DNA from: Pseudoxanthomonas wuyuanensis
GTDB taxonomy: Bacteria; Pseudomonadota; Gammaproteobacteria; Xanthomonadales; Xanthomonadaceae
Length of the DNA stretch: 64,000 bases
Direction: 5' to 3'
Assembly: GCF_900215535.1 (NCBI RefSeq)
Contig: NZ_OCND01000001.1
Coordinates: forward strand, 682,001 to 746,000
Position 1 is the first letter of the stretch; every line of letters begins with the position of its first letter. A program made the translations under genes and the position numbers. Below, piece after piece: positions 217 through 38,675 of this stretch. A model generated the notes under the pieces. It had not been told where the DNA came from and did no database searches. It worked only from the letters and a program-made list of their open reading frames with translations.

Positions 217-2808
217 ATGTTGGAAGCCTACCGCCACCACGTTGCCGAGCGCGCCGCGCTGGGAATCCCGCCGCTGCCGCTGACCGCGCAGCAGACCGCC
301 GAGGTCATCGAACTGCTGAAGGCGCCGCCGGCCGGGGAAGAGGAATTCCTGCTGGAACTGATCGGCCACCGCGTGCCGGCCGGCGTCGATGATGCGGCCA
401 AGGTCAAGGCCTCGTATCTGGCCGCCGTCGCCTTCGGCACGGAGCAATGCCCGCTGATCACCCGCGAGCGCGCCACCGAACTGCTGGGCACCATGCTGGG
501 CGGCTACAACATCCATCCGCTGGTGGAACTGCTGGAGGACGCCCAGGTCGGCACCATCGCCGCTACCGCGCTCAAGCACACGCTGCTGATGTTCGACGCC
601 TTCCATGACGTGCAGGAAAAGGCTTCGAGCGGCAACGCCAACGCCCAATCCGTGCTGCAGAGCTGGGCCGACGCCGAATGGTTCACCAGCAAGCCGGAAG
701 TGCCGGAAAGCCTGACCGTCACCGTGTTCAAGGTGCCGGGCGAGACCAACACCGACGACCTGTCGCCGGCCCCCGACGCCACCACCCGCCCGGACATCCC
801 GATGCACGCGCTGGCGATGCTGAAGAACAAGCGCGACGGCGCGCCGTTCCAGCCGGAAGAAGACGGCAAGCGCGGCCCGATCGCCTTCATCCAGTCGCTG
901 GCCGAAAAGGGCCACCCGGTCGCCTATGTTGGCGACGTGGTCGGCACCGGTTCCAGCCGCAAGTCGGCGACCAATTCGGTACTGTGGTGGACCGGCGAGG
1001 ACATCCCGTACATCCCCAACAAGCGCTTCGGCGGCGTCTGCCTGGGCAGCAAGATCGCACCGATCTTCTACAACACCATGGAAGACGCCGGCGCGCTGCC
1101 GATCGAGCTGGACGTGTCGAAGATGGACATGGGCGATGTGGTCGAACTGCGCCCCTACGAGGGCAAGGCGCTGAAGGACGGGCAGGTCATTGCGGAATTC
1201 CAGGTCAAGAGCGACGTGCTGTTCGACGAAGTGCGCGCCGGTGGCCGCATTCCGCTGATCATCGGCCGCGGCCTGACCGCCAAGGCGCGCGAGGCGCTGG
1301 GCCTGCCGCCTTCCACGCTGTTCCGCCTGCCGCAGGTGCCGGCCGATACCGGCAAGGGCTTCACGCTGGCGCAGAAGATGGTCGGCCGCGCCTGCGGTCT
1401 GCCCGAAGGGCAGGGCATGCGCCCGGGTACCTATTGCGAACCGAAGATGACCTCGGTGGGTTCGCAGGACACCACCGGTCCGATGACCCGCGATGAGCTG
1501 AAGGACCTGGCCTGCCTGGGCTTTTCCGCCGACCTGGTGATGCAGTCGTTCTGCCACACCGCGGCCTACCCGAAGCCGGTCGACGTCAGGACCCACCACG
1601 AGCTGCCGGCGTTCATCAGCAACCGCGGCGGCATTTCTCTGCGTCCGGGCGATGGCGTGATCCACAGCTGGCTCAACCGCATGCTGCTGCCGGACACCGT
1701 CGGCACCGGCGGCGATTCGCATACGCGCTTCCCGGTGGGCATTTCGTTCCCGGCCGGCTCGGGCCTGGTCGCCTTTGCCGCGGCCACCGGCGTGATGCCG
1801 CTGGACATGCCCGAATCGGTGCTGGTGCGCTTCAAGGGCCAGCTGCAGCCGGGCGTGACCCTGCGCGATCTGGTCAACGCCATCCCGCTGTACGCGATCA
1901 AGCAGGGCCTGCTGACGGTGGCCAAGCAGGGCAAGAAGAACATCTTCTCCGGCCGCATCCTGGAGATCGAAGGCCTGCCGGACCTGAAGGTGGAGCAGGC
2001 GTTCGAACTGTCCGACGCCTCGGCCGAGCGTTCCGCTGCCGGCTGCACCGTGCACCTGGACAAGGCCCCGATCATCGAATACATCAACAGCAACATCACG
2101 CTGCTGAAGTGGATGATTGCCGAGGGCTACCAGGACCCGCGCAGCCTGCAGCGCCGGATCAAGGCGATGGAAGCCTGGCTGGCCGATCCGCAGTTGTTGA
2201 AGGCCGATGCCGACGCCGAATACGCCGCCGTCATCGAAATCGATCTGGCCGATGTGCACGAGCCCATCGTGGCCTGCCCGAACGATCCCGACGACGTGAA
2301 GACGCTGTCGGAAGTCTCCGGCGCGGTGATCGATGAGGTCTTCATCGGTTCGTGCATGACCAATATCGGGCATTTCCGCGCGGCGTCGAAGCTGCTGGAA
2401 GGCAAGCGCGACATCCCGACCAAGCTGTGGGTTGCGCCGCCGACCAAGATGGACGCCGCCGAACTGACCAAGGAAGGCCACTACGGCACCTTCGGCACCG
2501 CTGGCGCGCGCATGGAAATGCCGGGCTGCTCGTTGTGCATGGGCAACCAGGCGCAGGTCAAGGAGGGCGCCACCGTGTTCTCCACCAGCACCCGCAATTT
2601 CCCCAACCGCCTGGGCAAGAACTCCAACGTTTACCTGGGCTCGGCCGAACTGGCCGCCATCTGCTCGCGCCTTGGCCGCATCCCGAGCAAGGCCGAGTAC
2701 ATGGCCGACATCGGCGTGCTGGATGCCAACGGCGCCGAGATCTACCGCTACATGAACTTCGATCAGATCCAGGACTACAAGGACGTGGCCGACACCGTCA
2801 GCGCCTGA
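217..2808 (+). CDS. acnB: Aconitate hydratase B
   Basis: An 863-residue protein, the normal length for AcnB, which interconverts citrate and isocitrate in the TCA cycle through a [4Fe-4S] cluster. An N-terminal helical repeat region (about 1-160) is followed by the swivel domain and then the catalytic domains. The cluster ligands are recognisable in [14 protein letters not shown] and in [10 protein letters not shown] near the C-terminus, and [13 protein letters not shown] and [20 protein letters not shown] are classic aconitase segments. The ATG follows a GGAG ribosome site. A strong terminator stands 25 bp after the stop, so it is probably transcribed alone or with the PIN gene. AcnB can also act as an RNA-binding regulator when it loses its cluster (known for E. 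coli, not shown here). Confidence 0.98.
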
Positions 2809-2833
2809 TCGCGACGGCTGCATGCTGTACCCA

Positions 2834-2862
2834 AAGCCCGGCCTTGCGCCGGGTTTTTTTTA
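2834..2862 (+). terminator. Rho-independent terminator of acnB
   Basis: CCCGG and CCGGG arms around a short CCTTGCG loop are followed by a run of eight T residues. It lies 25 bp downstream of the acnB stop codon. Confidence 0.85.
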
Positions 2863-3569
2863 TTCTTTTCCTCAATGTGGGGAGGCACTACCGGGGCGCT
2901 CATGGGCGGGCTCCGGAAGGGCGCCGTATCCTGGCGACCGGGGACCGCTTTTCCCTCGGTCAGGGCCGCTTCGCGGTCCGGCCCGGCGCAGCGCGCCGGG
3001 CGTTCGCGCGCACGCGCGGCGATGCCGCGCAAGCCGTCCGCGCTCACCCTGCCCTGACTCGGGCGCGCGCCATCCCTGGCGCGCTCTGCGCGGCCCCCCG
3101 GCCGCCAGGACACGGCTCACAGCCTGGCCAGGCCATCGGGGCTTCGGTGGCAGGCCATAGAAGCGGTAATAACGAATCGCCGATGCGGCGTCCCGATCGG
3201 GGTATACGGACAGCAGGCCATGGATGGCCTGCGGCGGCGAGTCAGCCAGGGATGGCTGACCGAGCCGGGCAGCATGCCCCGGTCGGGACGCCGCTGCTTC
3301 CGAAGCCTGCACACAGAACGTTCGCCTGGGCAACGGATTCCACATAGAAGTTCCCTGTACTTGGGAGCTTTTTGTGGGTGGCTTCTGCGGAAGTCATGCC
3401 GGTATGCCGGCACGACCCGAATAACGAAGGTCTGCCGAATGGCAGACGGATTGCGCTCCTGGAGCGTCCGGTTTGCCCCGGATTGCGCGTTCAACCTGGC
3501 AACAGGTAGCGATGTCGGCGCACGGAGCCGGCGCAGTACCGTCATTCGACATAACAGGGGCAGGGCTGC
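2863..3569. other. Intergenic stretch without a convincing gene
   Basis: About 700 bp between the acnB terminator and the ketosynthase operon. I see no frame with credible protein character. It holds GC-rich palindromes, including CCCGGCGC-AGC-GCGCCGGG near 2980-3000, and the structured repeat copy E described separately. From about 3366 there is a TTTTTGTGGG sequence and a CATGCCGG-TA-TGCCGGCA palindrome resembling the head of a REP element. The promoter of the downstream operon should lie in the last 150 bp, but I could not identify a clear -35/-10 pair. Confidence 0.5.
3110..3390. repeat. Structured palindromic repeat, copy E
   Basis: The core is an 18-bp stem, 3185-3202 paired with 3277-3294 (17 Watson-Crick pairs and one position that could form G-U). 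It encloses two further hairpins: GCAGGCCATGGATGGCCTGC (3213-3232) and GTCAGCCA-GGGA-TGGCTGAC (3241-3260). The whole would fold as a junction with two arms. The first inner hairpin is shared almost exactly with copy B (25835-25854), although the outer stems differ in sequence. To the left a degenerate relative of the GAAGCC...GGCTTC arms of copies A, B and D can be seen around 3121-3155. Confidence 0.7.
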
Positions 3570-4604
3570 GTGGCTCAAGCACGGATCCAGGGATTTCGCG
3601 TGGCGGGTGTCAGCACCTGCGTTCCTCCGCAGCGCGTGGACAATCTGGCCGATAGCGAACGTTTCGGCGCCGACGAAGTACGCAAGGTGGTTTCGATGGC
3701 CGGCGTGCGGCACCGGCATGTGGTGGAACCGGGAACGACCGCGGCGGACTTGTGCTTCGAAGCGGCGACCGCGCTGATGGAACGGCTTCGATGGGCGCCC
3801 GACAGCATCACCGGGCTGATCTTCGTCAGCCAGTCGCCCGATTACTTCCTGCCGTCCACCAGTTGCCTGTTGCACAAGTGGCTGGGCCTGGCGGACAGCT
3901 GCGCTGCGTTCGACATCGGCCTGGGTTGTTCCGGCTACCCGTATGGCTTGTATGTGGCCGCATCCATGCTCAAGGCCGGCGGCCAGCAGCGCATCCTGAT
4001 GCTGCACGGCGAAACCCCCAGCCGCTTCAGCCATCCAGACGATCATGCCACTACGCTGCTGTTCGGCGATGCCGGTTCGGCGACCGCGCTGGAAAGCAGT
4101 GCGGACGGCGAGGCGAGTTTCTGCCTGCACACCGATGGCAGCGGCTATGAGGGGTTGATCATCCGCGGCGGCGGTTTCCGCGACCGCCATCCGGACAACC
4201 CGCGCGATCTTGCGCTGGAAATGGACGGCGCGGCCATCTTCAATTTCACCATCAAACGCGTGCCGGCGCTGATCCGCGACGCGCTGGCATTCGCCGGCAA
4301 GCAGGTCGAGGACGTCGACCAGTTCGTATTCCATCAATCCAATCGTTTCATCATCAAGCACCTGGCCAAGAAATGCGGACTGCCGGACGAGCGCGTGCCG
4401 ATGACCATCGAGGACACCGCCAACTGCGGCGGCCCGTCGGTGGCGGTGACCTTGACCCGCTGCTCGCCGCAGCCGCCAGCGGCACAGACGGTGATGCTGG
4501 TGGGTTACGGCGTGGGGCTGTCGTGGGCTTCGGCGCTGCTGACGCTGGAGGCGCAGGCGCCGTTGCTGCATGCCGTGTACAGCGGCGAAGGGGTTCGCGC
4601 ATGA
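3570..4604 (+). CDS. 3-oxoacyl-ACP synthase III (KAS III/FabH-like)
   Basis: A 344-residue thiolase-fold ketosynthase starting at GTG; no earlier in-frame ATG is plausible. The KAS III catalytic triad is visible: Cys120 in DIGLGCSGYPYG, His255 in FVFHQSNRF and Asn285 in TANCGGPSV. Such enzymes condense an acyl-CoA or acyl-ACP starter with a malonyl-ACP-type extender, or transfer acyl groups to other acceptors. It is unlikely to be the housekeeping FabH, because no fatty-acid genes surround it and it opens an operon of ACP, amidotransferase and adenylating genes. Its stop overlaps the next start (ATGA), indicating translational coupling. The true substrate cannot be read from sequence. Confidence 0.85.
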   Translation: MAQARIQGFRVAGVSTCVPPQRVDNLADSERFGADEVRKVVSMAGVRHRHVVEPGTTAADLCFEAATALMERLRWAPDSITGLIFVSQSPDYFLPSTSCLLHKWLGLADSCAAFDIGLGCSGYPYGLYVAASMLKAGGQQRILMLHGETPSRFSHPDDHATTLLFGDAGSATALESSADGEASFCLHTDGSGYEGLIIRGGGFRDRHPDNPRDLALEMDGAAIFNFTIKRVPALIRDALAFAGKQVEDVDQFVFHQSNRFIIKHLAKKCGLPDERVPMTIEDTANCGGPSVAVTLTRCSPQPPAAQTVMLVGYGVGLSWASALLTLEAQAPLLHAVYSGEGVRA

Positions 4605-4855
4605 GCGCCGCAAGGATCACCATTGCCGAGGCGGTACAGATGCTGGCCGACGCCTTCGCCGAACCCGCCGATGAACTGGCGCCGGAGCGAAGTCGCGACG
4701 ACATCGGCGGTTGGGATTCGATGGGCGCGCTGATGCTGATGGCGGAGCTGGACGAACGCTTCGGCCTGCAGCTCGATGCCGAGCAGTCCAAGGCGATGCG
4801 CAGCGTCGGCGATGTGTTGGCCTACCTGCGCGCGCACGGTGTGCTGGATGAGTAG
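4601..4855 (+). CDS. Acyl carrier protein (first of two in the operon)
   Basis: An 84-residue acidic protein with the phosphopantetheine attachment site in GGWDSMGALMLMAELDERFG; the Ser of D-S-M-G is the expected modification site. It matches the usual ACP length and fold pattern (helix I, a loop with the D-S motif, helix II with a hydrophobic face). It starts within the ketosynthase stop codon (ATGA) and its own end overlaps the start of the following acyltransferase gene. It would present an acyl chain to the neighbouring enzymes. It is clearly different in sequence from the second ACP of the operon at 9.5 kb. Confidence 0.88.
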   Translation: MSAARITIAEAVQMLADAFAEPADELAPERSRDDIGGWDSMGALMLMAELDERFGLQLDAEQSKAMRSVGDVLAYLRAHGVLDE

Positions 4856-5996
4856 GCCGATGGACAGCGGGCCCGTGCGGACGCCGGAGTTCGAAACCAC
4901 CACGCGGTTGTTCGCGCGTTCGCTGGGGTGGACCCCGCAAGCGCTGCTGGAGGCCTTGCGTCCGGCGGTTCCGGAAGACCTGCCTGCGCTGGTCGCTTTC
5001 CGTGCCCGCCGCGGTTGGGACGACGAGGCCTACCTGCGCTGGCGGTACGGACTGGATTCGGCGGACGGCAATGGCCATGGCCGGTTGTGGCTGCTGCGGC
5101 GAGCGTCGTCGGTGATCGCGGTCATCGGCGTGGAGAAACAGCCGATCCGCTATCGCGGTGCCGTGCACGATGGCCAGCTGTTGATGGACGTGCAACTGGA
5201 CTCCGCCGCGGAAGGGGCGGGGGGCGGCGTGTGGCTGAACCAGGCGATGTTCCGCAAGGCCCCGATTACCCTGGCGGTCGGCGCCAATACGCATTCGCTG
5301 GGACTGGTCCGGCGGTTGTTCCTGCCATTGCCGCCGCGCAGCTACTACGTGCTGCCGCTGGATGCCGGCGCGATGCTGCGCCAGCATGGCGTTCCCGGAC
5401 TGCTGGCGGGCGTGGCCGGTCCGGTGATCGGCGGTGCCTGGCGACTGCGTGCCGGCTTGTCCGGTCCGCGCGATGACGGCGGCACCGAGGTCCGCGAAAT
5501 CGCCGGCTTCAGCGATGCGTTGCTGCAACCGCTTTACGCCGGGTTGGAGGCCGATGAGGCCAGCATCGCGCCAGCGGCGGCTCAGTTGAACTGGCGATTG
5601 CAGGACAATCCGCGCGCGCAATACCGTGTGCTGGCTGCCTTGCGCGATCGGCGCTGCGTCGGCTATCTGGCCATGCGGCGGCTGGTCGACGCCAACGGCA
5701 TGACAGGCATGCATATCATCGACTGGAAAACGGTGGCCGAGCGTGCGGACGACATTCTTGCCTGCCTGCTGCGCCAGGCGGTGGCGATGGCAAGGCAGGA
5801 GCGTTGCCAGCGCCTGTTCACCACCGCGCTGGATCGGCGCGCCGGTCCGTTGCTTGGGCGCATCGGCTTTCTGCGCGGGCGGCCGAGCGAGCACCTGCTG
5901 ACCGGTATCCGCACCGAGCTGCCGCTTCCCGGCGCGGGAGCGCCCGGCAGCTGGCGCATCACCGATCTGAGTTTCGACAACGATGGCTGCTACTGA
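4848..5996 (+). CDS. GNAT-like acyltransferase of the ketosynthase operon
   Basis: A 382-residue soluble protein; the ATG at 4848 overlaps the ACP stop, and a second in-frame ATG lies at 4860. The N-terminal part (LRPAVPEDLPALVAFRARRG) looks like the start of a GNAT fold, and WDDEAYLRWRYG is a pattern I associate with acetyltransferase-like proteins in polysaccharide or natural-product loci. A second GNAT-like half seems to follow from about residue 210. No exact catalytic residue can be named. By position it could move an acyl group from the carrier protein to an amine or hydroxyl acceptor. Family assignment is moderate and function is inferred from context only. Confidence 0.6.
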   Translation: MSRPMDSGPVRTPEFETTTRLFARSLGWTPQALLEALRPAVPEDLPALVAFRARRGWDDEAYLRWRYGLDSADGNGHGRLWLLRRASSVIAVIGVEKQPIRYRGAVHDGQLLMDVQLDSAAEGAGGGVWLNQAMFRKAPITLAVGANTHSLGLVRRLFLPLPPRSYYVLPLDAGAMLRQHGVPGLLAGVAGPVIGGAWRLRAGLSGPRDDGGTEVREIAGFSDALLQPLYAGLEADEASIAPAAAQLNWRLQDNPRAQYRVLAALRDRRCVGYLAMRRLVDANGMTGMHIIDWKTVAERADDILACLLRQAVAMARQERCQRLFTTALDRRAGPLLGRIGFLRGRPSEHLLTGIRTELPLPGAGAPGSWRITDLSFDNDGCY

Positions 5997-6029
5997 ACCG
6001 CGTCATCCGTTCGTGCAGGCAGGATCGCC

Positions 6030-7973
6030 ATGTGCGGTATAGCCGGGATCATCGCTGCGGCATCGGCGGCGCCTCCGGAGCAAAGCGAACTGCGTTCGAT
6101 GATCGCGGCCTTGCATCATCGCGGGCCGGACGGCAGCCGGATACGTGCGGATGGGCAGGTCGGGCTGGCCCACGCGCGGCTTTCGATCATCGACCCGGAA
6201 GGCGGCTGGCAGCCTATCCATAACCCGGGCCGCGATGTCTGGGTGATCTTCAACGGCGAGATCTTCAACCACATCGAGCTGCGGACGGCGCTGGAACGCC
6301 AGGGGCACCGGTTCTACACCGATTCGGATACCGAAGTGATCGTGCATCTGTACGATCGCTACGGCGAGGCGTTCGTGGAGCATCTCAACGGACAGTTCGC
6401 GATTGCGCTGCACGACATGCGCCGGCAGCGCATGGTGTTCGCGCGCGACCGCGTCGGCATCCGGCCGCTGCACTACCGGCGCCTGCCCGGACGGCTGGCG
6501 TTCGCATCCGAAATCAAGGCGCTGTTCGCGTTGCCGGGCCAACACCGCGCTTTCGATGTGCAGGCCTTGGGCGAGATCTTCAGTTTCTGGGGTACGCTGG
6601 ACTCGCGCACCGTGTTTCAGGACGTGAGTCAGCTGCCGCCAGGCCACCGGATGGTGGTGGACCTGCGCGATCCGGCGCTGCAGCCGCGCATCGAGCGCTA
6701 TTGGGCCTGGCAGCACCTGTCGGCAGACGAGCCGGGCCGCAGCGAGGACGATTACGCCGCGGAGTTGCATGCGTTGCTGATCGATGCGGTGCGACTTCAG
6801 TTGCGCGCCGATGTGCCGGTCGGCGCGTACCTGAGCGGCGGTCTGGATTCGGCGGTCATCGCCACCCTCATCGCCCGGCATACGCAGACGCCGTTGCGGA
6901 CGTTTTCGCTGGGTTTTTCCGATGCCGAGTTCGACGAGCGCATCCATCAGCGCACGCTGGTGGACGCGCTGGGCACCGAGCACAGCGAGATCCTGGTCGA
7001 CCGGGCAGATATCGCCGCCGCCTTCGCGCAATCGGTCTTCCACGCCGAGTCGCCGCTGGTGCGCACCGCGCCGACGCCGCTGATGCTGCTGGCCGGGCAT
7101 GTGCAGGATGCCGGCTACAAGGTGGCACTGACCGGCGAGGGCGCCGACGAAGTATTCGCCGGCTACGATCTGTTCAAGGAAGCCAGGGTCCGGCGGTTCA
7201 TGGCGCGGCAACCCGGCAGCCGCTGGCGCGGCCGCATCCTGGAACGGCTGTATCCGTACCTGGATCATTCGCCGGTGCGTTCGCCCGGCTTTGCCGAACG
7301 TTTCTTCCGCGAGGGCGCCGAGCAGCAGGCACAACCGTGGTTCGCGCATCTGCCGCGCATCCGCAGCACGCAGCGGGTACTGCGCTTCCTGCATCCGGAT
7401 CTGCGCCGGCAGTTGCAGGGCTGGCGCGCCGAAGATGCGCTGCAGGCGGGATTGCCGGCCGGGATCCGCGACTGGCCGCCGCTGGCCCGCGACCAGCAGG
7501 TCGAAGCGACCACCTTGCTGCCGGGCTATCTGCTGTCCTCGCAGGGGGACCGCATGAGCATGGCGCGTTCGGTGGAGGGGCGATATCCGTTCCTGGATCA
7601 CCGGGTTGTCGAATTCGGCAACCGGCTGCCGGCACGTTTCAAGCTGCGCGGCCTGTGCGAGAAGTACCTTCTCAAGCGGGCGATGCGCGACGAGTTGCCG
7701 GCATCGATCCTGCAACGGCACAAGCAACCGTACCGGGCGCCGGACAGCGGCTGCTTCTTCGCGCAGGGCCAGCCGCTGCCGTGGGTGGCAGCGGCGCTGG
7801 CGCCGGATCGCCTGGCCGCCAGCGGTCTGTTCGATACGGCCGCGGTTGCGCATCTGGTCGAAAAATGCCGCAGCGGCCGCGCCATAGGCTTTCCCGACAA
7901 CATGGCGTTCGTCGGCATCCTGTCCACCTTGCTGCTGCACGAACGGTTCGTGCAGACAGCGCCGGGAGCGTAG
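6030..7973 (+). CDS. Asparagine synthase-like glutamine amidotransferase
   Basis: A 647-residue AsnB-type enzyme. The mature protein would begin with Cys (MCGIAGIIAA), the class II glutaminase nucleophile. The N-terminal half is the Ntn glutaminase domain (for example LHHRGPDGS). The C-terminal half is an ATP-pyrophosphatase domain with YLSGGLDSAVIA and LTGEGADEVFAGYD. These enzymes release ammonia from glutamine and use it to amidate an adenylated carboxylate. The length fits the polysaccharide/exosortase-associated amidotransferase group better than housekeeping AsnB (about 550 residues). It sits between the acyltransferase and acyl-AMP ligase genes, so the substrate may be an acyl acid or sugar acid made by this pathway. 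Confidence 0.88.
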   Translation: MCGIAGIIAAASAAPPEQSELRSMIAALHHRGPDGSRIRADGQVGLAHARLSIIDPEGGWQPIHNPGRDVWVIFNGEIFNHIELRTALERQGHRFYTDSDTEVIVHLYDRYGEAFVEHLNGQFAIALHDMRRQRMVFARDRVGIRPLHYRRLPGRLAFASEIKALFALPGQHRAFDVQALGEIFSFWGTLDSRTVFQDVSQLPPGHRMVVDLRDPALQPRIERYWAWQHLSADEPGRSEDDYAAELHALLIDAVRLQLRADVPVGAYLSGGLDSAVIATLIARHTQTPLRTFSLGFSDAEFDERIHQRTLVDALGTEHSEILVDRADIAAAFAQSVFHAESPLVRTAPTPLMLLAGHVQDAGYKVALTGEGADEVFAGYDLFKEARVRRFMARQPGSRWRGRILERLYPYLDHSPVRSPGFAERFFREGAEQQAQPWFAHLPRIRSTQRVLRFLHPDLRRQLQGWRAEDALQAGLPAGIRDWPPLARDQQVEATTLLPGYLLSSQGDRMSMARSVEGRYPFLDHRVVEFGNRLPARFKLRGLCEKYLLKRAMRDELPASILQRHKQPYRAPDSGCFFAQGQPLPWVAAALAPDRLAASGLFDTAAVAHLVEKCRSGRAIGFPDNMAFVGILSTLLLHERFVQTAPGA

Positions 7974-7975
7974 TG

Positions 7976-9511
7976 ATGCTGCTGCACAGGCTGTTCGACG
8001 CCACCGTGCAGCGCCAGCCGGACAGGCTGGCGCTGGTATGCGCCGATGCGCGGCTCAGCTACGCGCAGCTCGACCGGCGCAGCCGGCAACTGGCCCGGCA
8101 CCTGCGGGAACAGGGCATCGCGACCGGCGAACGGGTCGGCCTGTTCCTGGACAACGGTCCCGACATGGTCGTGGCCATTCTGGCGCTGCTGCGGCTGGGT
8201 GCGGTCTGCATGGCCTTCAATCCGCAGACCAAGGCCGGCAAGCTGGGGGCGGTGCTGGCCAGAACCCGCGCCTCGGCGTTGCTGACCCAGGCGACGCTGG
8301 CAACGGTGTGGCGCCAGGCTGCGGCAGCCGCACCGGAGCTGCGTCTGCAACTGATCAGCGGCCATGGCTGGCAACCGGCATCGGCCCGCGAGCTGCCCTG
8401 GCCCGACGGCACGGTCGATGACGGTTGCGAACCGCCCGATATCGACGCGGACATCGATGCGCACGCATTGGCCTTCATCAGCCATACCTCCGGCACCACC
8501 GGACTGCCGAAAGGGGTGATGCTCACGCACCGCAACCTGGCCAGCATCACCGGTACGATTGCCCAATACCTGGCCCTGCGCCAGGACGATGTGATCCTCA
8601 GCGCGCTGCCGCTGAGCTTCAACTACGGACTGACCCAGTTGCTGACCGCGTTCGCCACCGGCGCCACCCTGGTGCTGGAGCGTTCCTTCGCGTTCCCGGC
8701 CAAGGTGCTGGAGACCTTGTCGCGCGAACGTGCCACCGTATTTCCGGCGGTGCCGACGATGTACGCGATGCTGATGGGGCTGCAGGATCTGTCGCGCTGG
8801 GATCTGTCGTCGCTGCGGCTGATGACCAGCGCCTCGGCACCGCTGCCGCAACCGCTGCTGCAGCAGTTGCGGCAGCGGCTCCCGTCCGTGCGGCTGTATG
8901 TGATGTACGGGCAGACCGAGTGCACCCGCATCAGCTACCTCCCGCCCGAACAGTTGGACAGGCGGCCGGACAGCGTCGGCCGCGGACTGCCCGGCCAGGA
9001 CTGCTGGCTGATCGACGAGCACGGACAACGGCTGCCGCATGGCTCGAGCGGCGAACTGGTGGTGCAGGGCGATCATGTCATGGCCGGTTACTGGGACGAC
9101 CGCGAGCGGAGCGCCGAGAAACTGTTCCGCGACCCGGCCAGCGGCCGTATCGCGATGCGCACCGGCGATCTGTTCCGCAGCGATGCCGACGGCTGGCTGT
9201 ACTTCATCGCCCGCAAGGACGACATCATCAAGACCCGCGGCGAGAAGGTCAGTCCGCATGAAGTGGAGCAGGCGATCCTGGACATCCCCGGCGTGCGCGA
9301 GTGCGCGGTCAGCGGCGTTGCCGATGCGCTGCTGGGCCAGGCCATCCAGGCGCATGTGGTGCTGGAGGAAGGCGCCACGCTGGGCGAACGCGACATCATC
9401 CGCCATTGCCTGGCGCGGCTGGAAAGCCACATGGCGCCGAAGCATGTGGCCTTTCTGGATGCCTTACCACGTACTGATAGCGGCAAGGTCAGCAAACATC
9501 TGCTGGCGTGA
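7976..9511 (+). CDS. Acyl-AMP ligase / acyl-ACP synthetase (ANL superfamily)
   Basis: A 511-residue adenylate-forming enzyme with all core ANL motifs: HTSGTTGLPKGVM (P-loop), MYGQTECTRI, MRTGDLFRS, KDDIIKTRGEKVSP (hinge) and the terminal PRTDSGKVSK with the catalytic Lys. It should activate a carboxylic acid as an acyl-AMP and load it on CoA or, given two ACP genes in the operon, on a carrier protein. It resembles the AMP ligases of exosortase-associated polysaccharide loci, though no exosortase is visible here. The start is the ATG 2 bp after the preceding stop; an in-frame GTG directly before it is possible. Confidence 0.87.
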   Translation: MLLHRLFDATVQRQPDRLALVCADARLSYAQLDRRSRQLARHLREQGIATGERVGLFLDNGPDMVVAILALLRLGAVCMAFNPQTKAGKLGAVLARTRASALLTQATLATVWRQAAAAAPELRLQLISGHGWQPASARELPWPDGTVDDGCEPPDIDADIDAHALAFISHTSGTTGLPKGVMLTHRNLASITGTIAQYLALRQDDVILSALPLSFNYGLTQLLTAFATGATLVLERSFAFPAKVLETLSRERATVFPAVPTMYAMLMGLQDLSRWDLSSLRLMTSASAPLPQPLLQQLRQRLPSVRLYVMYGQTECTRISYLPPEQLDRRPDSVGRGLPGQDCWLIDEHGQRLPHGSSGELVVQGDHVMAGYWDDRERSAEKLFRDPASGRIAMRTGDLFRSDADGWLYFIARKDDIIKTRGEKVSPHEVEQAILDIPGVRECAVSGVADALLGQAIQAHVVLEEGATLGERDIIRHCLARLESHMAPKHVAFLDALPRTDSGKVSKHLLA

Positions 9512-9525
9512 TCCTCTCCTTCGAC

Positions 9526-9786
9526 ATGGAACCACAGATGCAGGCAATCAAGACCTCCGTCCGCCAGTACATCCAGGACAACTTCCTGATGGGCAGCGCC
9601 GAAACCTATGCCGACGATGCCTCGTTCATGGATGCGCAGTTGCTGGATTCCACCGGCTTCCTCGAACTGGTCCATTTCCTTGAAGACAGCTACGGCATCA
9701 AGGTCGAAGACGAGGAAATGATGCCGGAAAACCTGGACTCGCTGGACGCGGTGGCGCGGTTCGTCATGCGCAAGCAGGCCGCATGA
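9526..9786 (+). CDS. Acyl carrier protein (second of the operon)
   Basis: A small acidic carrier protein of about 86 residues with the attachment site in MDAQLLDSTGFLELVHFLED (Ser of L-D-S-T-G) and typical ACP helices after it (YGIKVEDEEMMPENLDSLD). Three starts are possible: GTG at 9508, overlapping the ligase stop as GTGA; ATG at 9526; and ATG at 9538. None has a strong ribosome site, and coupling to the ligase is likely. Carrier proteins of this type (D-S-T-G with an M-x-P-E-N-L-D-S-L end) often pair with a dedicated acyl-AMP ligase, which here is the gene immediately upstream. Confidence 0.85.
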   Translation: MEPQMQAIKTSVRQYIQDNFLMGSAETYADDASFMDAQLLDSTGFLELVHFLEDSYGIKVEDEEMMPENLDSLDAVARFVMRKQAA

Positions 9787-10748
9787 ACGCGCTGGGTCCG
9801 CAGGTACTGGACATCGATCTGGCCGCCGAAGCCGACCGCATCGCCGGCTGGATGCGCGGCACCACCCGCCAATTGCGCCGGCGCGGTCTGGTGATTGCGA
9901 TGTCCGGCGGCATCGACAGCTCGGTCTGCGCAGCGCTGGCGGTGCGCGCGGTCGGTGCGGACAAGGTATTCGGACTGCTGCTGCCCGAGCGCGATTCCAG
10001 CGGCCAGTCCAGCCGGCTGGGAAGGCTGCTGGCCGAACACCTGGGCATCGCCCATGAACTGCACGACATCGCGCCGGCGCTGGACGCGCTGGGCTGCTAT
10101 CGCGACCGCGATGCGGCCATCCGCCAGGTATTTTCCGACTACGGCGATGGCTGGAAGAACAAGATCGTGCTGCACGGCGGCCTGCAGGGCGGCATCAACT
10201 ATTACAAGCTGGTGGTGCAGTCGCCGGAGGGAAACATGCAGGAGGCGCGGCTGCCGTTGCAGGCCTATCTGCAGATCGTCGCGGCGACCAACCACAAGCA
10301 GCGCCTGCGCAAGACGCTGGAGTACTACCACGCCGACCGGCTCAACTATGCGGTGATCGGCACACCCAACCGGCTCGAGTACGACCAGGGCTTCTTCGTC
10401 AAGAACGGCGACGGTTCTGCCGATCTGAAGCCGATCGCGCACCTGTTCAAGAGCCAGGTTTATGCGATGGCGCGGCAGTTGGGATTGCCGGAGGAAATCT
10501 GCGCCACCACGCCGACCACCGACACCTACAGCCTGCCGCAGGGGCAGGACGAGTTCTACTTCGCATTGCCGTATGCGGCGATGGATCTGGCGCTATGGGC
10601 GCACGACCACGACCGGCCGGCGGCCGAACTGGCGGCTGCGTTGCAGATGCCGGTGGCGCAGGCCGAGGCGGTGTACGCGGATATCGCGGCCAAGCGCCGC
10701 GCCGCCGTTTACCTGCACGCACCGCCGGCGAGGATGGAGCCGCTCTGA
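9783..10748 (+). CDS. NAD synthetase-like ATP-dependent amidating enzyme
   Basis: A 321-residue ATP-pyrophosphatase-fold protein of the NadE family, with the P-loop MSGGIDSSVCAALAVRAVG and LQAYLQIVAATNHKQRLRK. It has no N-terminal nitrilase (glutaminase) domain, so it would use free ammonia or ammonia delivered by a partner. It starts inside the ACP stop codon (ATGA), and its own stop directly abuts palindromic repeat copy A. Housekeeping NadE is possible. However, coupling to an ACP/ligase/amidotransferase operon suggests a recruited paralogue that amidates a pathway intermediate; NadE-like genes occur in some surface-polysaccharide clusters. Confidence 0.8.
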   Translation: MNALGPQVLDIDLAAEADRIAGWMRGTTRQLRRRGLVIAMSGGIDSSVCAALAVRAVGADKVFGLLLPERDSSGQSSRLGRLLAEHLGIAHELHDIAPALDALGCYRDRDAAIRQVFSDYGDGWKNKIVLHGGLQGGINYYKLVVQSPEGNMQEARLPLQAYLQIVAATNHKQRLRKTLEYYHADRLNYAVIGTPNRLEYDQGFFVKNGDGSADLKPIAHLFKSQVYAMARQLGLPEEICATTPTTDTYSLPQGQDEFYFALPYAAMDLALWAHDHDRPAAELAAALQMPVAQAEAVYADIAAKRRAAVYLHAPPARMEPL

Positions 10749-11040
10749 AAAGGTTCTTCTCCGAACGTCGACATGGAAGCCGATGGCCCTAGCGTTGCGG
10801 GACACGCTGCAAATACTCGCTACGCGGGGCCGGCCCGCCATCGCAGATGGCGAGCGTTCGGCTGCCCGCGAAGCGGTGCTTCGCAAGCGCTTGCCTCACC
10901 CATGTAAGCTCTTACGCGGCGTCCATGCCGCGTACGGTCCCGCAACGCTGGGGCCATCGGCTTCTGGACAGGTTACCGGCGTGCGGGCAAAAAATTGTGG
11001 GAGTGGCGTCGGCATGCCGGCGCCGGTGAGTCGCGATTGA
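10746..11040. repeat. Structured palindromic repeat, copy A
   Basis: It begins with the terminal motif GAAAAGGTTCTTCTCCGA, which overlaps the stop of the preceding gene. The 28-bp arms at 10776-10803 and 10937-10964 pair at 27 positions, and the remaining position forms a possible G-U pair. Inside are CTTACGCGGCGTCCATGCCGCG and neighbouring sequence shared with copies B and D. The right end runs into TTGTGGGAGTGGCGTC, a REP-like head, at about 10994. It fills most of the gap before hflD. Confidence 0.8.
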
Positions 11041-11138
11041 GCGTTACAAGGAAACGCTCTACTCGCGTTCGTGTTCGTAAAAAGCGACGACGCTTTCAGA
11101 AGCCGCTGCCTTGAATCTGGAAAACCAAAAAGATCAGC

Positions 11139-11750
11139 TCAGCGCAGCCACTCGTCTGCGGCTTCCAGCATCGCCTTGCGCGAGAACAGGAAATCCCAGT
11201 AGCTGCCGCCCAGTTGCCGCCACAGTACCGCCGAACGCACCGCCGCCAGCAGAATCGCGCGGATTTCCGCGACCACCCCGGGCTGGCCCAGGTAGTGCGG
11301 ATTGCCCTGGACCATCACCCGCGGGCGCAGATGGCTGATGGTGTCGGCGTACAGGCCGCCAAGCGCGGCCAGCACTTCCGGATGGGTGCTGCCCTGGGCC
11401 TGCGCTTGCGGCGCGATTTCGCTGATACCCGAACCGACCGCGTTGACGGTATTGGTTTCGCGGACGAAACGGCGCTCCAGTTGCAGCACCGACAATGCCA
11501 GCTTGGGCAGCGCTTCGTCGCGCGCCTCGTTGCCCAGGTAGCTGCGCAGCAGCCGCAGCCCCGAAGAGACACCGGCGACCTGTCCGTAGACCTCGATAGG
11601 CGAAGCCGCGTCGATGCGGAACACGCTGTCCAGCGAGGCCTGCACCACGGCCGCTTCCGACTGGCCGGTTTCGGCGATGCGCCTGACCTGTTGCAACGCC
11701 TGGGCCAGGCCGGCCAGCGCCAGTACGCGTTCGGAAAATCGGTTGCTCAA
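11139..11750 (-). CDS. hflD: High frequency lysogenization protein HflD homologue
   Basis: A 203-residue helical protein ([29 protein letters not shown]...) with the HflD (YcfC) pattern, including [21 protein letters not shown] and an aromatic SYWDFLFSR end. In E. coli HflD is a peripheral membrane protein that interacts with phage lambda CII. Its cellular role is poorly known, and it is conserved next to mnmA. The start is a TTG whose bases overlap the mnmA stop (TTGA), so it is translationally coupled. The order nudJ-mnmA-hflD is the same as in E. coli. Confidence 0.9.
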
Positions 11751-12880
11751 GCTGCTTGCTCCGCGATACGTCGTTCAAGAGGGGCGTCGGTGCGGGCGAT
11801 GATCGCACCGCCCAGACATTGTTCGCCGTCATACAGCACCAGCGATTGGCCGGGCGTGACGGCGCGCTGCGGGCGCGGGAAGCGCACCGCCAGCGTGCCG
11901 TCGTCGGCCACCGTCACCGTGCAGGGCTCGTCGCTCTGGCGGTAACGGGTCTGCGCCGTGCATTCGAACGCCCGCGCCGGCGGCGCGCCGGCAACCCAGT
12001 GCGCGGCTTCCGACCACAGCTGCTGCGATTGCAGGAACGGGCTATGGGTGTCCTGATCGACGTACAGCACGTTGCTGGCCACATCCTTGCCGACCACGTA
12101 CCACGGCGCGGCCGGGCGTCCGCGCACGCCGCCGATCTGCAGGCCTTCGCGCTGGCCCAGGGTGAAGTAGAAAACCCCGGGGTGCTCGCCGATCTTGTGG
12201 CCCTGCGGGTCGCGCATCTCGCCCGGCTTGGCCGGCAGGTAGCGGCCCAGGAACTCGCGGAAATCGCGCTCGCCGATGAAGCAGATGCCGGTCGAGTCCT
12301 TCTTGTCGTGGGTCGGCAGGCCGGCCTCGCGGGCAATCCGGCGCAGGTCGGACTTCTGCAGATCGCCAATCGGGAACAAGGTCGCCGACAACTGCGACTG
12401 ACCCAGTTGGTGCAGGAAATAGCTCTGGTCCTTGCTGCGGTCCACGCCGCGCAGCAGCCGCCAATGGCTGCCGACGCGCGCCACCCGCGCATAGTGGCCG
12501 GTGGCGATCTTTTCCGCGCCCAGCTCGCGTGCAGCGTTGAGAAAATGCTTGAACTTCACTTCCCGGTTGCACAGCACGTCCGGATTGGGCGTGCGGCCGG
12601 CGGCGTATTCGGCCAGGAAATGCTCGAACACGCCTTTCCAGTATTCGGCCGAAAAATCGCGGAAATGGAATGCGATGCCCAGCTTGCCGCAGACCGCGAC
12701 CGCATCGCGGCGGTCGTCTTCGGCGCGGCAGTCGCCGCTGGCCTGCGCATCGCCGTCGTCGGCCCAGTTCTGCATGAACAGGCCCGCCACCGATTCGCCG
12801 GCCTGGACCAGGCGCAGCGCCGCCACCGACGAATCGACGCCGCCGGAAACACCCACAATGATCCGAGGGCTGGACGTCAT
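11747..12880 (-). CDS. mnmA: tRNA-specific 2-thiouridylase MnmA
   Basis: A 377-residue protein that thiolates U34 of glutamate, glutamine and lysine tRNAs, with sulfur delivered by TusE/IscS. The N-terminal ATP-PPase motif is [12 protein letters not shown]. The two catalytic cysteines lie in [13 protein letters not shown] and [18 protein letters not shown] and [10 protein letters not shown] are further family blocks. The start is set at the Met of [10 protein letters not shown], because the 20 residues in front lack family similarity. It is cotranscribed with nudJ upstream and hflD downstream. Confidence 0.96.
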
Positions 12881-12983
12881 ACGGTCACCGCACCGCTTGC
12901 GCAACCGGACCCGCACGGCGCCAACGCACCTCCCCGGCATGCGAAGGAGGTAGGGCGGGGCCGTCGTCGGAGACCAAGCAGCC

Positions 12984-13463
12984 TCATGCCAGGTGCTGCA
13001 GCATCGACAGCGGGTAGCGGCGTCCGGCCAGGAAATCCTGCACCGCCTGCCAGACCAGCGGGCTGCGATGGCGTTCGCGCTGGGCCTGCAGCTCGGCCGG
13101 GGTCAGCCACAGCGCCTGCACGATGCCGTCGTCCAGCGGCCGCGCCGGATCGTGGCTGACCGGCTCGGCGGCGAACGCGAAGCGCAGGTAGTGGCGGCCG
13201 TTGCCGCCGTCGGCGCTGCCCTCGGCCTGCCACTGGTAGGCGCCGACGAACCCGGTCAGGCGCACGTCCCAGCCGGTTTCCTCGCGGGTTTCGCGCAATG
13301 CCGCGTCCTGCAGGCTCTCGTCCGGTTCCAGATGCCCGGCCGGCTGGTTGAATACCAGCCGGCCATTGGCGCGCTCCTCTACCATCAACAGCCGGCCGTC
13401 GCGCACCACCACGGTCGCCACGGTCACATCCGGCTGCCAGAATCGGCCTTCGCGGTAGGTCAT
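12984..13463 (-). CDS. nudJ: Nudix hydrolase, NudJ-like
   Basis: A 159-residue Nudix enzyme beginning [15 protein letters not shown]. The Nudix box is complete: G-H-L-E-P-D-E-S-L followed by [13 protein letters not shown] (GX5EX7REUXEEXGU), giving the Mg-binding helix. NudJ of E. coli hydrolyses nucleoside di/triphosphates and the thiamin precursor HMP-PP. The order nudJ-mnmA-hflD supports this identity. It starts 11 bp after the upstream gene, so it is probably in the same transcript. Confidence 0.9.
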
Positions 13464-13474
13464 CGGCGTTGCGC

Positions 13475-13984
13475 TCAGAACTCGTCGGCGGCCGGGTCGG
13501 CGGCCAGTTCCAGTTCCATCTCGTCGGCGGTGGCGACCGCCGCGCCGATGGCCTCGTCCAGCACCTGTGCGCCCGCATCGGCCGGAAGCTTGATCACGAA
13601 CACCGCGCTCTGGCCCTGCTTGACCCAACTGCCCAGGATCAGATTGTGCGATGCCTCCAGCAGGCGGTTGGCGACCAGCGCCGGGAACGATTCGCCCGGG
13701 GCGCGGTAGGCATACGACCATAGCTCGCGGATCTTCATCTGCCCGTAGGTTTCCACCGCCGAGCGGATGAATACCAGCTGGCTGCGTTCGTCGTCCCCGC
13801 CCACGGCCATCAGCAGCTTGTAGTCGCCGTCGTCGTCCACCTCGTACTCGTATTCCAGTTGCTTGAGCAGCATCGCGATACCCGGATCCGGCGCCACTGC
13901 AGCTTGCGCCGGCGCCTCCTGGGCAGCGACGGGGAGGATCGCCCCGGACAGGGCAAGCAGGGCGGCGAGCAGGGCTGGTTTCAT
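13475..13984 (-). CDS. Exported protein, possibly YbjN-like
   Basis: A 169-residue protein with a clear signal peptide (MKPALLAALLALSGAILPVAAQE, cleavage near AAQ/E). The mature part is acidic with an alpha/beta pattern: LKQLEYEYEVDDDGDYKLLM, SQLVFIRSAVETYGQMKIRELWSYAYR and ILGSWVKQGQSAVFVIKLPADA. This resembles the YbjN/type III secretion chaperone-like fold, but the similarity is only by eye. It lies first in a transcript with nudJ, mnmA and hflD, and its start is divergent from clpS. Its function is unknown. Confidence 0.75.
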   Translation of the reverse strand: MKPALLAALLALSGAILPVAAQEAPAQAAVAPDPGIAMLLKQLEYEYEVDDDGDYKLLMAVGGDDERSQLVFIRSAVETYGQMKIRELWSYAYRAPGESFPALVANRLLEASHNLILGSWVKQGQSAVFVIKLPADAGAQVLDEAIGAAVATADEMELELAADPAADEF

Positions 13985-14044
13985 GGAAGTATCCGTTGAC
14001 TGGAACGTGAATTGTGCGGGCAGCAGCCCAGCCCGTCCAATCCG

Positions 14045-14050
14045 TATAAT
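14045..14050 (+). promoter_or_regulatory. -10 box placing the clpS transcript start at the ATG
   Basis: A perfect TATAAT lies 6 bp before the clpS ATG, so transcription would begin at or next to the A of the start codon. No Shine-Dalgarno sequence is present. No good -35 is seen at the usual distance. A leaderless clpS mRNA is the inference. Confidence 0.6.
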
Positions 14051-14056
14051 TGCCGC

Positions 14057-14377
14057 ATGCCCCGCAAGCACGAAAACGAACGCGACCACGGCGTGATGGT
14101 CGAGACCGGCAAGCCCGAGGTCGCGCCGCCGCCGCTGTACCAGGTCCTGCTGCTCAACGACGATTACACGCCGATGGATTTCGTGGTGGTGGTCCTGCAG
14201 CAGTTCTTCGCCATGGACCTGGAAAAGGCCACCCAGGTGATGCTGCATGTGCATACCCGCGGGCGCGGCGTCTGCGGCGTCTACACCCGGGAGGTGGCCG
14301 AATCCAAGGTCGCCCAGGTCAACGAGTTCTCGCGGATCAACCAGCACCCGCTGCTGTGCACCATGGAAAAATCCTGA
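14057..14377 (+). CDS. clpS: ATP-dependent Clp protease adaptor ClpS
   Basis: A 106-residue N-end-rule adaptor that hands substrates with bulky hydrophobic N-termini to ClpAP. The family core is plain: [17 protein letters not shown] (the N-degron pocket), [22 protein letters not shown] and a short flexible N-terminus. It lies upstream of clpA as in most proteobacteria. The aat gene at 18.4 kb, which makes N-degrons, belongs to the same pathway. The ATG stands 6 bp after a TATAAT box. Confidence 0.96.
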
Positions 14378-14481
14378 CCGGTCCGGCCCCTGGAACGAGT
14401 TATACCTAGTGGGGCAAGTGCGAAAAACGCTGCAGCGGCGCCAGGCTCGCCTTGGAACGGCGCCGGCGGCCATGCTGCGCC

Positions 14482-14520
14482 GGCGCGCAACGCATCTCGT
14501 CCCGGAGTTCATGACACGCT
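14482..14520. repeat. 39-bp dispersed repeat, copy 1
   Basis: The block beginning GGCGCGCAACGCATCTC and ending ACACGCT matches 45730-45768 at 34 of 39 positions. It lies in the 263-bp clpS-clpA gap, next to CCGGCG-rich palindromic sequence. Its function is unknown. Confidence 0.6.
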
Positions 14521-14640
14521 GCAGGTGAGGGCCGTTGCTGCCGGGACAAGGCAACACCGGCTGAACAGTGAAATTCATCCAGGAGATGGAATTTTCACCC
14601 GCAAGCCGCATATTGTTGGCATCGGCCCCGGAGGCGAACC

Positions 14641-16920
14641 ATGTTCAGCAAAGATCTCGAGCAAACCATCGGCCAGTGCTACAAGCGCGCCCGTGAGGCG
14701 CGGCACGAGTTCATGACAGTGGAGCACCTGCTGCTCTCGCTGCTGGAAAACCCGTCCGCGCAGGCGGTGCTGAAGGCCTGCGGCGCCGATTCGGGCCGCC
14801 TCCAGCACGAACTGGAACAGGCCATCGAGGCCTCAGTGTCGCGCCTGGCCGAAGACGACGGCCGCGATACCCAGCCGACGCTGGGTTTCCAGCGCGTGCT
14901 GCAACGCGCGGTCTACCACGTACAGTCCTCGGGCAAAAAGGAAGTCACCGGCGCCAACGTGCTGGTGGCCATTTTCGGCGAGAAGGACTCGCATGCGGTC
15001 TATTACCTGACCCAACAGGACGTGACCCGGCTGGATATCGTCAACTACCTGTCGCACGGCATCGCCAAGCAGGGCGATGAGCACGAGGCGCAGGGCCAGG
15101 CGGACGGCGAGGGCAAGGCCGAGGGTGGCGACGGCGACGGCAAGGGCGATGCGCTGGCCGAGTTCGCCAGCAACCTCAACGACCTGGCGCGCCATGGCCG
15201 CATCGATCCGCTGGTCGGCCGCGGCGACGAGGTCGAGCGCACCATCCAGGTGCTGTGCCGACGGCGCAAGAACAACCCGCTGTACGTCGGCGAAGCCGGC
15301 GTCGGCAAGACCGCGCTGGCCGAAGGCCTGGCCAAGCGCATCGTCGACGGCGACGTACCGGAAGTGCTGCTGGACGCCACCATCTATTCGCTGGACCTGG
15401 GGGCGCTGGTCGCCGGCACCAAGTACCGCGGCGATTTCGAAAAGCGCCTGAAGGCGGTGCTGAGCGCAATCAAGAAGCACGATGGCGCCATCCTGTTCAT
15501 CGACGAAATCCACACCATCATCGGCGCCGGCTCGGCCAGCGGCGGCACCATGGACGCCAGCAACCTGATCAAGCCGGCGCTGGCTTCCGGCGATCTGCGC
15601 TGCATCGGGTCGACCACGTTCCAGGAGTACCGCGGCATTTTCGAGAAGGACCGGGCGTTGGCGCGGCGCTTCCAGAAAATCGACATCGTCGAGCCGACCG
15701 TTGGCGAGGCCTTCCAGATCCTGCAGGGCCTCAAGCCCAAGTACGAGGCACATCACGGCGTCACTTACGCCGACGAGGCCTTGCAGGCTGCGGTCGATCT
15801 GTCGGTCAAGCACATCGGCGACCGCTTGCTGCCGGACAAGGCCATCGACGTGATCGATGAAGCCGGCGCGCGTCAGCGCCTGCTGCCGGAAAACGTCCGC
15901 AAGGAGCTGATCGACGTCGAGGAGATCGAGACCATTGTGGCCAAGATGGCGCGGATTCCCGCCAAGCAGGTGTCCTCGTCCGACAAGGACGTGCTGCAGC
16001 ACCTGGAGCGCAACCTGAAGATGGTGATCTTCGGCCAGGATCCGGCCATCGAGACGCTGGCCTCGGCGATCAAGCTGGCCCGCAGCGGCCTGGGCAATCC
16101 GGACAAGCCTATCGGCAACTTCCTGTTCGCCGGCCCGACCGGCGTCGGCAAGACCGAGGTGACCAAGCAGCTGGCGCTGCAACTGGGCATCGAACTGGTC
16201 CGCTTCGACATGAGCGAATACATGGAGCCGCATTCGGTCAGCCGCCTGATCGGCGCGCCCCCGGGCTATGTCGGCTTCGACCAGGGCGGCCTGCTGACCG
16301 AGAAAATCGTCAAGACGCCGCACTGCGTGCTGTTGCTGGACGAGGTGGAAAAAGCGCACCCGGACATCTTCAACATCCTGCTGCAGGTCATGGACCGCGG
16401 CGTGCTGACCGACACCAACGGCCGCGAAGCGAACTTCAAGAACGTGATCCTGGTGATGACCACCAATGCCGGCGCCGCGCAGGCGGCGCGCCGGACCATC
16501 GGCTTCACCCGCCAGGACCACTCCACCGATGCGATGGAAGTGATCCGCAAGAGCTTCACCCCGGAGTTCCGCAACCGCCTGGATGCGGTGGTGCAGTTCC
16601 AGGGCCTGGGCTTCGACCATATTCTGCGAGTTGTCGACAAGTTCCTGATCGAGCTGGAAATGCTGCTGCAGGAGAAGCACGTCAGCCTGTCGGCCACGCC
16701 GGCCGCGCGCGACTGGCTGGCCCAGCACGGTTTCGACCCGCTGATGGGTGCCCGCCCGATGGCGCGGCTGATCCAGGACAAGGTCAAGCGCCCGCTGGCC
16801 GACGAGCTGCTGTTCGGCAAGCTGCTCGGCGGCGGCCGCGTCAGCATCGACGTCAAGGACGGCGAGCTGGTCGTCGAAGCGCAGGCCGAACCGGAAAAGC
16901 TGCTGCCGGCGACGGTGTGA
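14641..16920 (+). CDS. clpA: ATP-dependent Clp protease ATP-binding subunit ClpA
   Basis: A 759-residue unfoldase that feeds ClpP, the usual length. The N-domain that docks ClpS (about 1-145, MFSKDLEQTIGQCYKRARE) is joined by a short acidic, glycine-rich linker to AAA+ module 1 (GEAGVGKTALAEGL, ILFIDEIHTIIGAG) and module 2 (AGPTGVGKTEVTKQL, LLLDEVEKAHPD). RTIGFTR matches the loop that docks on ClpP. A GGAGG ribosome site precedes the ATG. A strong terminator follows the stop. Confidence 0.98.
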   Translation: MFSKDLEQTIGQCYKRAREARHEFMTVEHLLLSLLENPSAQAVLKACGADSGRLQHELEQAIEASVSRLAEDDGRDTQPTLGFQRVLQRAVYHVQSSGKKEVTGANVLVAIFGEKDSHAVYYLTQQDVTRLDIVNYLSHGIAKQGDEHEAQGQADGEGKAEGGDGDGKGDALAEFASNLNDLARHGRIDPLVGRGDEVERTIQVLCRRRKNNPLYVGEAGVGKTALAEGLAKRIVDGDVPEVLLDATIYSLDLGALVAGTKYRGDFEKRLKAVLSAIKKHDGAILFIDEIHTIIGAGSASGGTMDASNLIKPALASGDLRCIGSTTFQEYRGIFEKDRALARRFQKIDIVEPTVGEAFQILQGLKPKYEAHHGVTYADEALQAAVDLSVKHIGDRLLPDKAIDVIDEAGARQRLLPENVRKELIDVEEIETIVAKMARIPAKQVSSSDKDVLQHLERNLKMVIFGQDPAIETLASAIKLARSGLGNPDKPIGNFLFAGPTGVGKTEVTKQLALQLGIELVRFDMSEYMEPHSVSRLIGAPPGYVGFDQGGLLTEKIVKTPHCVLLLDEVEKAHPDIFNILLQVMDRGVLTDTNGREANFKNVILVMTTNAGAAQAARRTIGFTRQDHSTDAMEVIRKSFTPEFRNRLDAVVQFQGLGFDHILRVVDKFLIELEMLLQEKHVSLSATPAARDWLAQHGFDPLMGARPMARLIQDKVKRPLADELLFGKLLGGGRVSIDVKDGELVVEAQAEPEKLLPATV

Positions 16921-38659: not shown

Positions 38660-38675
38660 TTCAGCAATTAGTAAA

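Follow-up and report, generated by a model that had tools for sequence, protein, structure and literature searches.

Seven open reading frames (ORFs) on the + strand of a 64-kb stretch of Pseudoxanthomonas wuyuanensis DNA (the window, by which the whole stretch is meant) span exactly positions 3570-10748 and form an operon encoding, in this order, a type III beta-ketoacyl-acyl carrier protein synthase (KASIII), a first acyl carrier protein (ACP1), a tandem GNAT protein, an AsnB-type amidotransferase, an adenosine monophosphate (AMP)-forming acyl ligase, a second carrier protein (ACP2) and a NadE-like enzyme. An earlier note on this DNA had described the set as ACP-dependent and as holding two types of nitrogen-inserting enzyme. 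All of its ORFs were found again, and the profile libraries used for the operon proteins, Pfam and NCBIfam, identified KASIII, ACP1, AsnB, ligase and NadE-like protein, whereby the AsnB and NadE-like assignments support the notion of two such enzyme types. The genes are as follows.

3570..4604, + strand: KASIII-type beta-ketoacyl-ACP synthase; GTG start; PF08545/PF08541; Cys-His-Asn triad
4601..4855, + strand: ACP1, carrier protein; PF00550; WDS motif
4860..5996 (alternative start 4848), + strand: tandem-GNAT acyltransferase-like protein; AlphaFold2 fold and remote homology
6030..7973, + strand: AsnB-type glutamine-dependent amidotransferase; PF00733/PF13537; MCG start; SGGLDS loop
7976..9511 (GTG at 7973 possible), + strand: AMP-forming acyl ligase, probable acyl-ACP synthetase; PF00501/PF13193
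9508..9786, + strand: ACP2, carrier protein; LDS[T] motif; NCBIfam ACP matches below cut-off
9783..10748, + strand: NadE-like NH3-dependent ligase; NF002048; extra segment at about residues 105-158

Overlaps of 4 nt join KASIII to ACP1, ligase to ACP2 (GTGA, shared by the related locus L039) and ACP2 to NadE, and the 4-nt gap between ACP1 and the GNAT gene turns into an ATGA overlap if the latter starts at 4848, so that three or four of the six junctions overlap depending on this start; the remaining gaps amount to 2 nt (AsnB/ligase) and 33 nt (GNAT/AsnB). The tight ATGA/GTGA coupling claimed earlier was hence recovered. Relatives retain the catalytic motifs examined in KASIII, ligase and AsnB as well as the serines of the two carriers, and a grouping of these genes by chance is excluded because they recur together in other genomes.

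This recurrence was followed with the NadE-like gene as the starting point. Above the NF002048 cut-off it was found in 24 of 198 same-family genomes, the own genome included, and these 24 loci hold ACP2 (24/24), the ligase (22), AsnB (21) and a GNAT gene of either type (22), the counts meaning presence within the fetched locus (mostly 19 kb) and not strict adjacency. A wider sample joined to these 24 loci the best 80 species-genome loci of at least 404 confirmed relatives and three rhizobial plasmids; from the resulting 107 loci L076, L090, L108, L118 and L124 were dropped as they gave no NadE gene call, leaving 102, among them near-duplicates (L055 and L117 have identical NadE) and partial contigs, with genes in the relatives called by a simple purpose-made caller. 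Of the 102 loci, 90 (referred to as core loci) have two or more of the partners AsnB, ACP2 and ligase no further than nine genes from NadE, and 69 have all three there, identifying AsnB, ACP2, ligase and NadE-like protein, often with a tandem GNAT, as the core common to the relatives. Seven loci show no core partner, five of them in Fibrobacterota, Latescibacterota, Gemmatimonadota, Planctomycetota and Myxococcota records, while in the other two (L112 and L141) NadE stands at a contig end. All seven genes are present in five of the 102 loci, namely the window, L039 (with a frameshifted GNAT gene), L066, L093 and L096, which differ in gene order, L093 and L096 using both strands; the earlier note had named a lack of co-occurrence elsewhere as the finding that would speak against it, and the other four loci provide the opposite. 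Two further observations concern single cassettes: in L065 the cassette (2249-14844) sits between an NMT1-type ABC transporter and ureD, with the same gene clusters in L068, and L072 is a contig binned as Chloroflexi that carries a betaproteobacterial-type cassette, owing to transfer or mis-binning.

KASIII and ACP1 represent a rarer add-on to the core cassette. They were followed through nine KASIII-bearing loci with several gene orders, in all of which, the window included, the Cys-His-Asn triad of KASIII and the WDS motif of ACP1 are kept. The window KASIII, whose N-terminus agrees with that of its homologues, scores below the FabH-type cut-offs (NF006829, 212 of 249 bits; TIGR00747, 184 of 292) and finds its nearest PDB chain in 4efi (279 bits) as compared to 137 bits for the FabH entry 1ebl; judged by these scores, it belongs to a subfamily separate from FabH. 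ACP1 matches PF00550 at 28.5 bits (cut-off 20.8). On the NadE tree, which comprises 97 of the 102 rows, five short NadE rows having been omitted, the presence of KASIII requires five changes (gains or losses), three of them forced by supported branches. KASIII of the operon kind was found in one of 369 class genomes (E<=1e-85), this being the own genome, in two of 198 same-family genomes (E<=1e-70) and in no plasmid at E<=1e-80. The KASIII-bearing locus L067 holds FabZ- and FabG-like genes alongside, both below curated cut-offs, as would be expected for chain elongation.

The third protein, which the earlier note had called acyltransferase-like, matches no family in Pfam or NCBIfam, and its nature had to be derived from a structure model and remote homologues. 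An AlphaFold2 model computed from a 29-sequence alignment (pLDDT 88.5) displays tandem GNAT domains, and nearly all of its 50 listed PDB matches are N-myristoyltransferases; by its model, the protein is a tandem GNAT of the kind seen in N-myristoyltransferase. The GNAT type that follows NadE elsewhere (type b) is remotely homologous to that of the window (type a; hhalign 99%, E 9e-18 over 327 columns). Weak Pfam GNAT matches below cut-off were obtained for some relatives, and two rhizobial plasmids carry GNAT-like genes directly upstream of asnB with a weak match to the combined profile (16-21 bits).

AsnB is of the asparagine-synthase type (TIGR01536, 479.8 bits; cut-off 267.1), starts with MCG as expected of an N-terminal Cys glutaminase and shares the SGGLDS synthetase loop with all 72 cassette AsnBs. 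In NCBIfam its near families include TIGR03108, the second best, and TIGR03104, whereas in the PDB the nearest chains are the hydroxyamidotransferase 7ylz and the AsnB structure 1ct9. The position of 7ylz as nearest relative might point to a hydroxamate or another natural-product pathway with N-O or N-N bonds, in which AsnB would transfer an unusual nitrogen nucleophile; however, only six PDB sequences pass E 1e-10, so this rank says little, the operon holds no N-oxygenase gene and AsnB lies above the asparagine-synthase cut-off, making such a pathway the least probable of the explanations considered.

The ligase retains the TSGTTG core residues, as do about 90 of 92 homologues. Adenylation (A) domains usually carry an Asp at the site where the ligase has FNYG; as this Asp appears replaced, an alpha-amino acid is disfavoured as substrate. 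ACP2 matches no Pfam family and reaches NCBIfam ACP models only below cut-off, and its carrier DS is kept in 89 of 89 homologues. Homologues of all four core genes are adjacent on the plasmid pSymB of Sinorhizobium meliloti 1021 (L177) in the order asnB-acp-ligase-nadE, with identities to the window proteins of 46% (ligase), 49% (ACP and AsnB) and 61% (NadE). The pSymB operon differs from that of the window in that ACP precedes ligase, where the window has ligase before ACP, and in that KASIII, ACP1 and an adjacent GNAT are missing. In the annotated strain, no polysaccharide marker was found within nine genes of the pSymB locus. An S. meliloti operon of this kind is said to have been described by Ramos-Vega in 2009. 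The L177 pair is most likely identical with SMb20650 and SMb20651, because it joins a ligase to an ACP, is located on pSymB of the 1021 strain and shares 46-49% identity with the window proteins, the record itself having no gene tags. Passages of PMC7232532 describe that SMb20650 is cotranscribed with the ACP SMb20651, that its expression in Escherichia coli yields acylated SMb20651 and that it does not replace FadD. Among the papers found in the open-licence literature of PubMed Central (PMC), only those on S. meliloti touch this kind of operon and a function of the four-gene core was not found, absence there being no proof. The earlier description as an orphan set and a new pathway is not supported in the strong sense, since the core is widespread and has a four-gene homologue on pSymB. 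The core was partly described already in S. meliloti; new here are its extension by KASIII, ACP1 and GNAT, the location of the island and the argument for NF002048 as a paralogue.

The NadE-like protein is by score a clear member of NF002048 (PRK00876; 482.8 bits, curated cut-off 313), a family named NAD(+) synthase, and the simplest explanation would be that it is an ordinary NAD synthase, the special chemistry being limited to ACP and AsnB. Apart from the family name, this explanation draws on the model, which displays the NadE fold (TM 0.84 to 2e18 by target length) with some 50 extra residues, partly beta-stranded, before the long helix, and on the retained ATP-loop and GT-N-E / F-K-GDG residues. 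PTTDT and QGQDEFY (QTQEEFY in rhizobial copies) occur as family motifs where two solved NadEs have a KxPSA-type sequence. Against an ordinary NAD synthase stands that the Lys which precedes the Pro of this sequence by two residues is replaced by Ala in 27 of 34 relatives and by Thr in the window protein. Moreover, linkage to ACP2 and ligase is near-constant in the same-family survey, and every one of the 13 chromosomal genomes that were tested has another NadE above the TIGR00552 cut-off (the own genome, G065, a genome of another genus, and 11 more; several metagenome bins are included), S. meliloti remaining outside this count as its record covers the plasmid alone. In the own genome the second NadE has the size of a glutamine-dependent enzyme and scores 196 bits (cut-off 63.65). 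In the genomes examined NF002048 thus has the appearance of a paralogue linked with ACP cassettes, and we consider the role of an ordinary NAD synthase improbable. Stand-alone NF002048 genes were seen in L134, L135, L138, L139 and L142, from Fibrobacterota, Planctomycetota, Latescibacterota, Myxococcota and Gemmatimonadota records, and in L134, L138 and L142 adjoin Rrf2-, pta- and ackA-like genes, named by sequence reading. A housekeeping role in NAD synthesis for these phyla was rejected because the genomes of L134, L138 and L142 hold another NadE. NF002048 might instead be a carrier-protein-linked amide synthetase, i.e., a NadE paralogue that would adenylate the carboxylate of an acyl-ACP or acyl conjugate and add ammonia beside AsnB, the operon product then being a doubly amidated acyl compound of a new class; this proposal we regard as rather doubtful.

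The operon forms an island between two genes assigned by Pfam, the right one, which carries DUF489, being hflD.

217..2808, + strand: acnB, aconitase B; left edge of the insertion site
2833..2857, + strand: terminator-like hairpin after acnB; weak alone, as 9 such sites occur in the region and 5.6 are expected from shuffles
11139..11750, - strand: hflD (DUF489); right edge of the insertion site

The gap between acnB and hflD measures 8.3 kb in the window. Among 15 congeners, all with an hflD match, seven have the end of acnB at about 70-115 bases from hflD and hence an empty site, acnB lying outside the fetched flank in the other eight; in G065 the operon (L039) occupies the same acnB/hflD site. 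On the NadE tree the window and L039 fall into a 19-row clade (SH-aLRT 99) of mainly betaproteobacterial cassettes, and a separate 43-row clade (SH-aLRT 99) holds the Lysobacteraceae copies except L132. Because the site is empty in these seven congeners and the window NadE groups with mainly betaproteobacterial cassettes, acquisition of the operon by horizontal transfer is suggested. No family of direct repeats marks both island edges among the 20 largest families shown. This likely foreign origin could also mean a decaying island that lacks a present function, in line with the frameshift that splits the L039 GNAT gene (6171-7312; decay or assembly error) and with the outcome of the promoter search, by which a sigma-70-like promoter was not found for the operon (1.0 expected by chance). 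However, all seven window frames are open, tightly spaced and in possession of the tested motifs, and the remaining six genes of L039 are preserved with 66-79% identity, so that decay is very unlikely to be the explanation.

The surroundings of the operon hold several further features. Between NadE and hflD, outside the operon, lies a 189-bp element (10776-10964) with 28-nt terminal inverted repeats (96%) and a strong fold (z -8.2), for which the own genome gives 46 matches, 28 of which cover 160 or more of 211 bases; it looks like a dispersed miniature inverted-repeat transposable element or a repeat of the repetitive extragenic palindromic type, and a piece of the same repeat recurs at 25677-25747. 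A divergent pair at 37760-39651 consists of a regulator-like gene, LysR-like by reading of the unscanned sequence, and a beta-lactamase-family gene, and another gene of the latter family lies at 62500-63681. Neither Rfam nor a tRNA scan gave a match in the window.

Taken together, we tentatively suggest, at slightly less than even confidence, that the operon represents a transferable pathway based on acyl-ACP, its product being a small molecule or surface lipid that is N-acylated and amidated. Initially, the ligase would adenylate a free carboxylic acid (conceivably a fatty acid) and load it onto ACP2, a step for which the homologue studied in E. coli offers support. Next, in the variant found in the window, KASIII together with ACP1 may add one malonyl unit to the chain, whereupon the tandem GNAT would pass the acyl group to an amine. 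Finally, AsnB (using glutamine) and the NadE-like enzyme (using ammonia) would each amidate a carboxylate of the acceptor or product. The homologue speaks for the loading of the ACP by the ligase only; the enzyme classes of the second to fourth steps were assigned by sequence or fold, whereas we infer in which order the steps follow and what acceptor and product are involved. A PrmC/HemK-like methyltransferase gene occurs in 18 of the 90 core loci, one such protein scoring 200 bits against the TIGR03534 cut-off of 199. Enzymes of this class act on amide nitrogen, and methylation of an amide nitrogen would fit their presence.

Several points weigh against such a pathway. The likeness of the third protein to GNATs and N-myristoyltransferases exists at the level of the fold alone (TM about 0.5, 7-14% identity), and the S. 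meliloti four-gene set does without a GNAT. In PDB searches the ligase comes nearest to A-domains of nonribosomal peptide synthetases (NRPSs), which means that the acid need not be fatty. AsnB is not seen near the core in L075, L079, L092, L094 and L104 (three Thiomonas), unlike in L128 (Thiomonas delicata), where it is present. Most loci are without a PrmC-like gene, and a strict NPPY is missing in 10 of 19 of these genes. At least 46 of the 90 core loci have a polysaccharide marker (glycosyltransferase, deacetylase, sugar transferase, flippase, Wzy or chain-length protein) within nine genes, a lower bound because the marker set is limited to 11 clusters, each of which received its Pfam name from a single member. 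Finally, the genomes of L066, L093 and L096 have 5, 3 and 2 exosortase matches elsewhere, so that a glycan or sortase link is possible there.

The last two points lead to the main rival of the acyl-ACP pathway, by which the operon would serve polysaccharide tailoring, i.e., place acyl and amide decorations on exopolysaccharide sugars, acting in trans with glycan loci elsewhere in the genome. It is favoured, besides the marker count and the exosortases of these three seven-gene genomes, by the same-family survey, in which 19 of 24 loci hold a polysaccharide gene and 14 an EpsB-type sugar transferase (families named on L043), figures that likewise count against an orphan set, and by two Bac_transf sugar transferases elsewhere in the own genome. 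In addition, passages of PMC7468200 present PGN_1234 of Porphyromonas gingivalis, an AsnB linked by PSI-BLAST to TIGR03108-type proteins, as needed for the formation of glucuronamide. One of the closest known systems is the XrtA/PEP-CTERM set, whose TIGR03098 is the best NCBIfam relative of the window ligase. The kinship of ligase and AsnB to exosortase-associated families stated in the earlier note stands, but membership does not, as both remain below the XrtA-specific cut-offs (ligase, 407.2 of 592.35 bits to TIGR03098; AsnB, 443.2 of 816.9 to TIGR03108). The NadE-like protein is not known to be part of that set. While the core often resides within exopolysaccharide clusters with an XrtA-type sugar transferase, the own genome (G000) and G065 show no match to the exosortase family PF09721. 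Exosortase linkage was hence rejected for the own genome, as was rhombosortase linkage (best 43.9 of 84 bits to TIGR03902), whereas G065 has a rhombosortase (108.3 bits). Polysaccharide tailoring is further opposed by the 44 core loci that have no marker within nine genes and by the five seven-gene loci, none of which has one (0/5). The whole set does recur outside polysaccharide surroundings, and the order is not always a broken piece of a larger polysaccharide cluster, the outcome by which the earlier note would have been refuted. Of the nine KASIII-bearing loci eight are free of a marker, L121 having one, and L067 carries nucleotide-sugar-like genes (by sequence reading) that lie outside the marker set. 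In the window itself, in agreement with the earlier note, sugar glycosyltransferases, exosortases, NRPSs and polyketide synthases are absent from the Pfam scan of 20 other proteins, the remaining genes being unscanned, and one nucleoside-phosphorylase-like protein has Glycos_transf_3 domains. The core is thus not always a fragment of a polysaccharide cluster, yet it is not independent of glycan loci either, and polysaccharide tailoring is judged unlikely, though a rival to be taken seriously.

If NF002048 does amidate another substrate, many annotations would need correction, and an acyl-amide metabolite or lipid of wide occurrence would still have to be found. The seven-gene island, located outside glycan clusters, would offer a compact and handy unit for heterologous expression.

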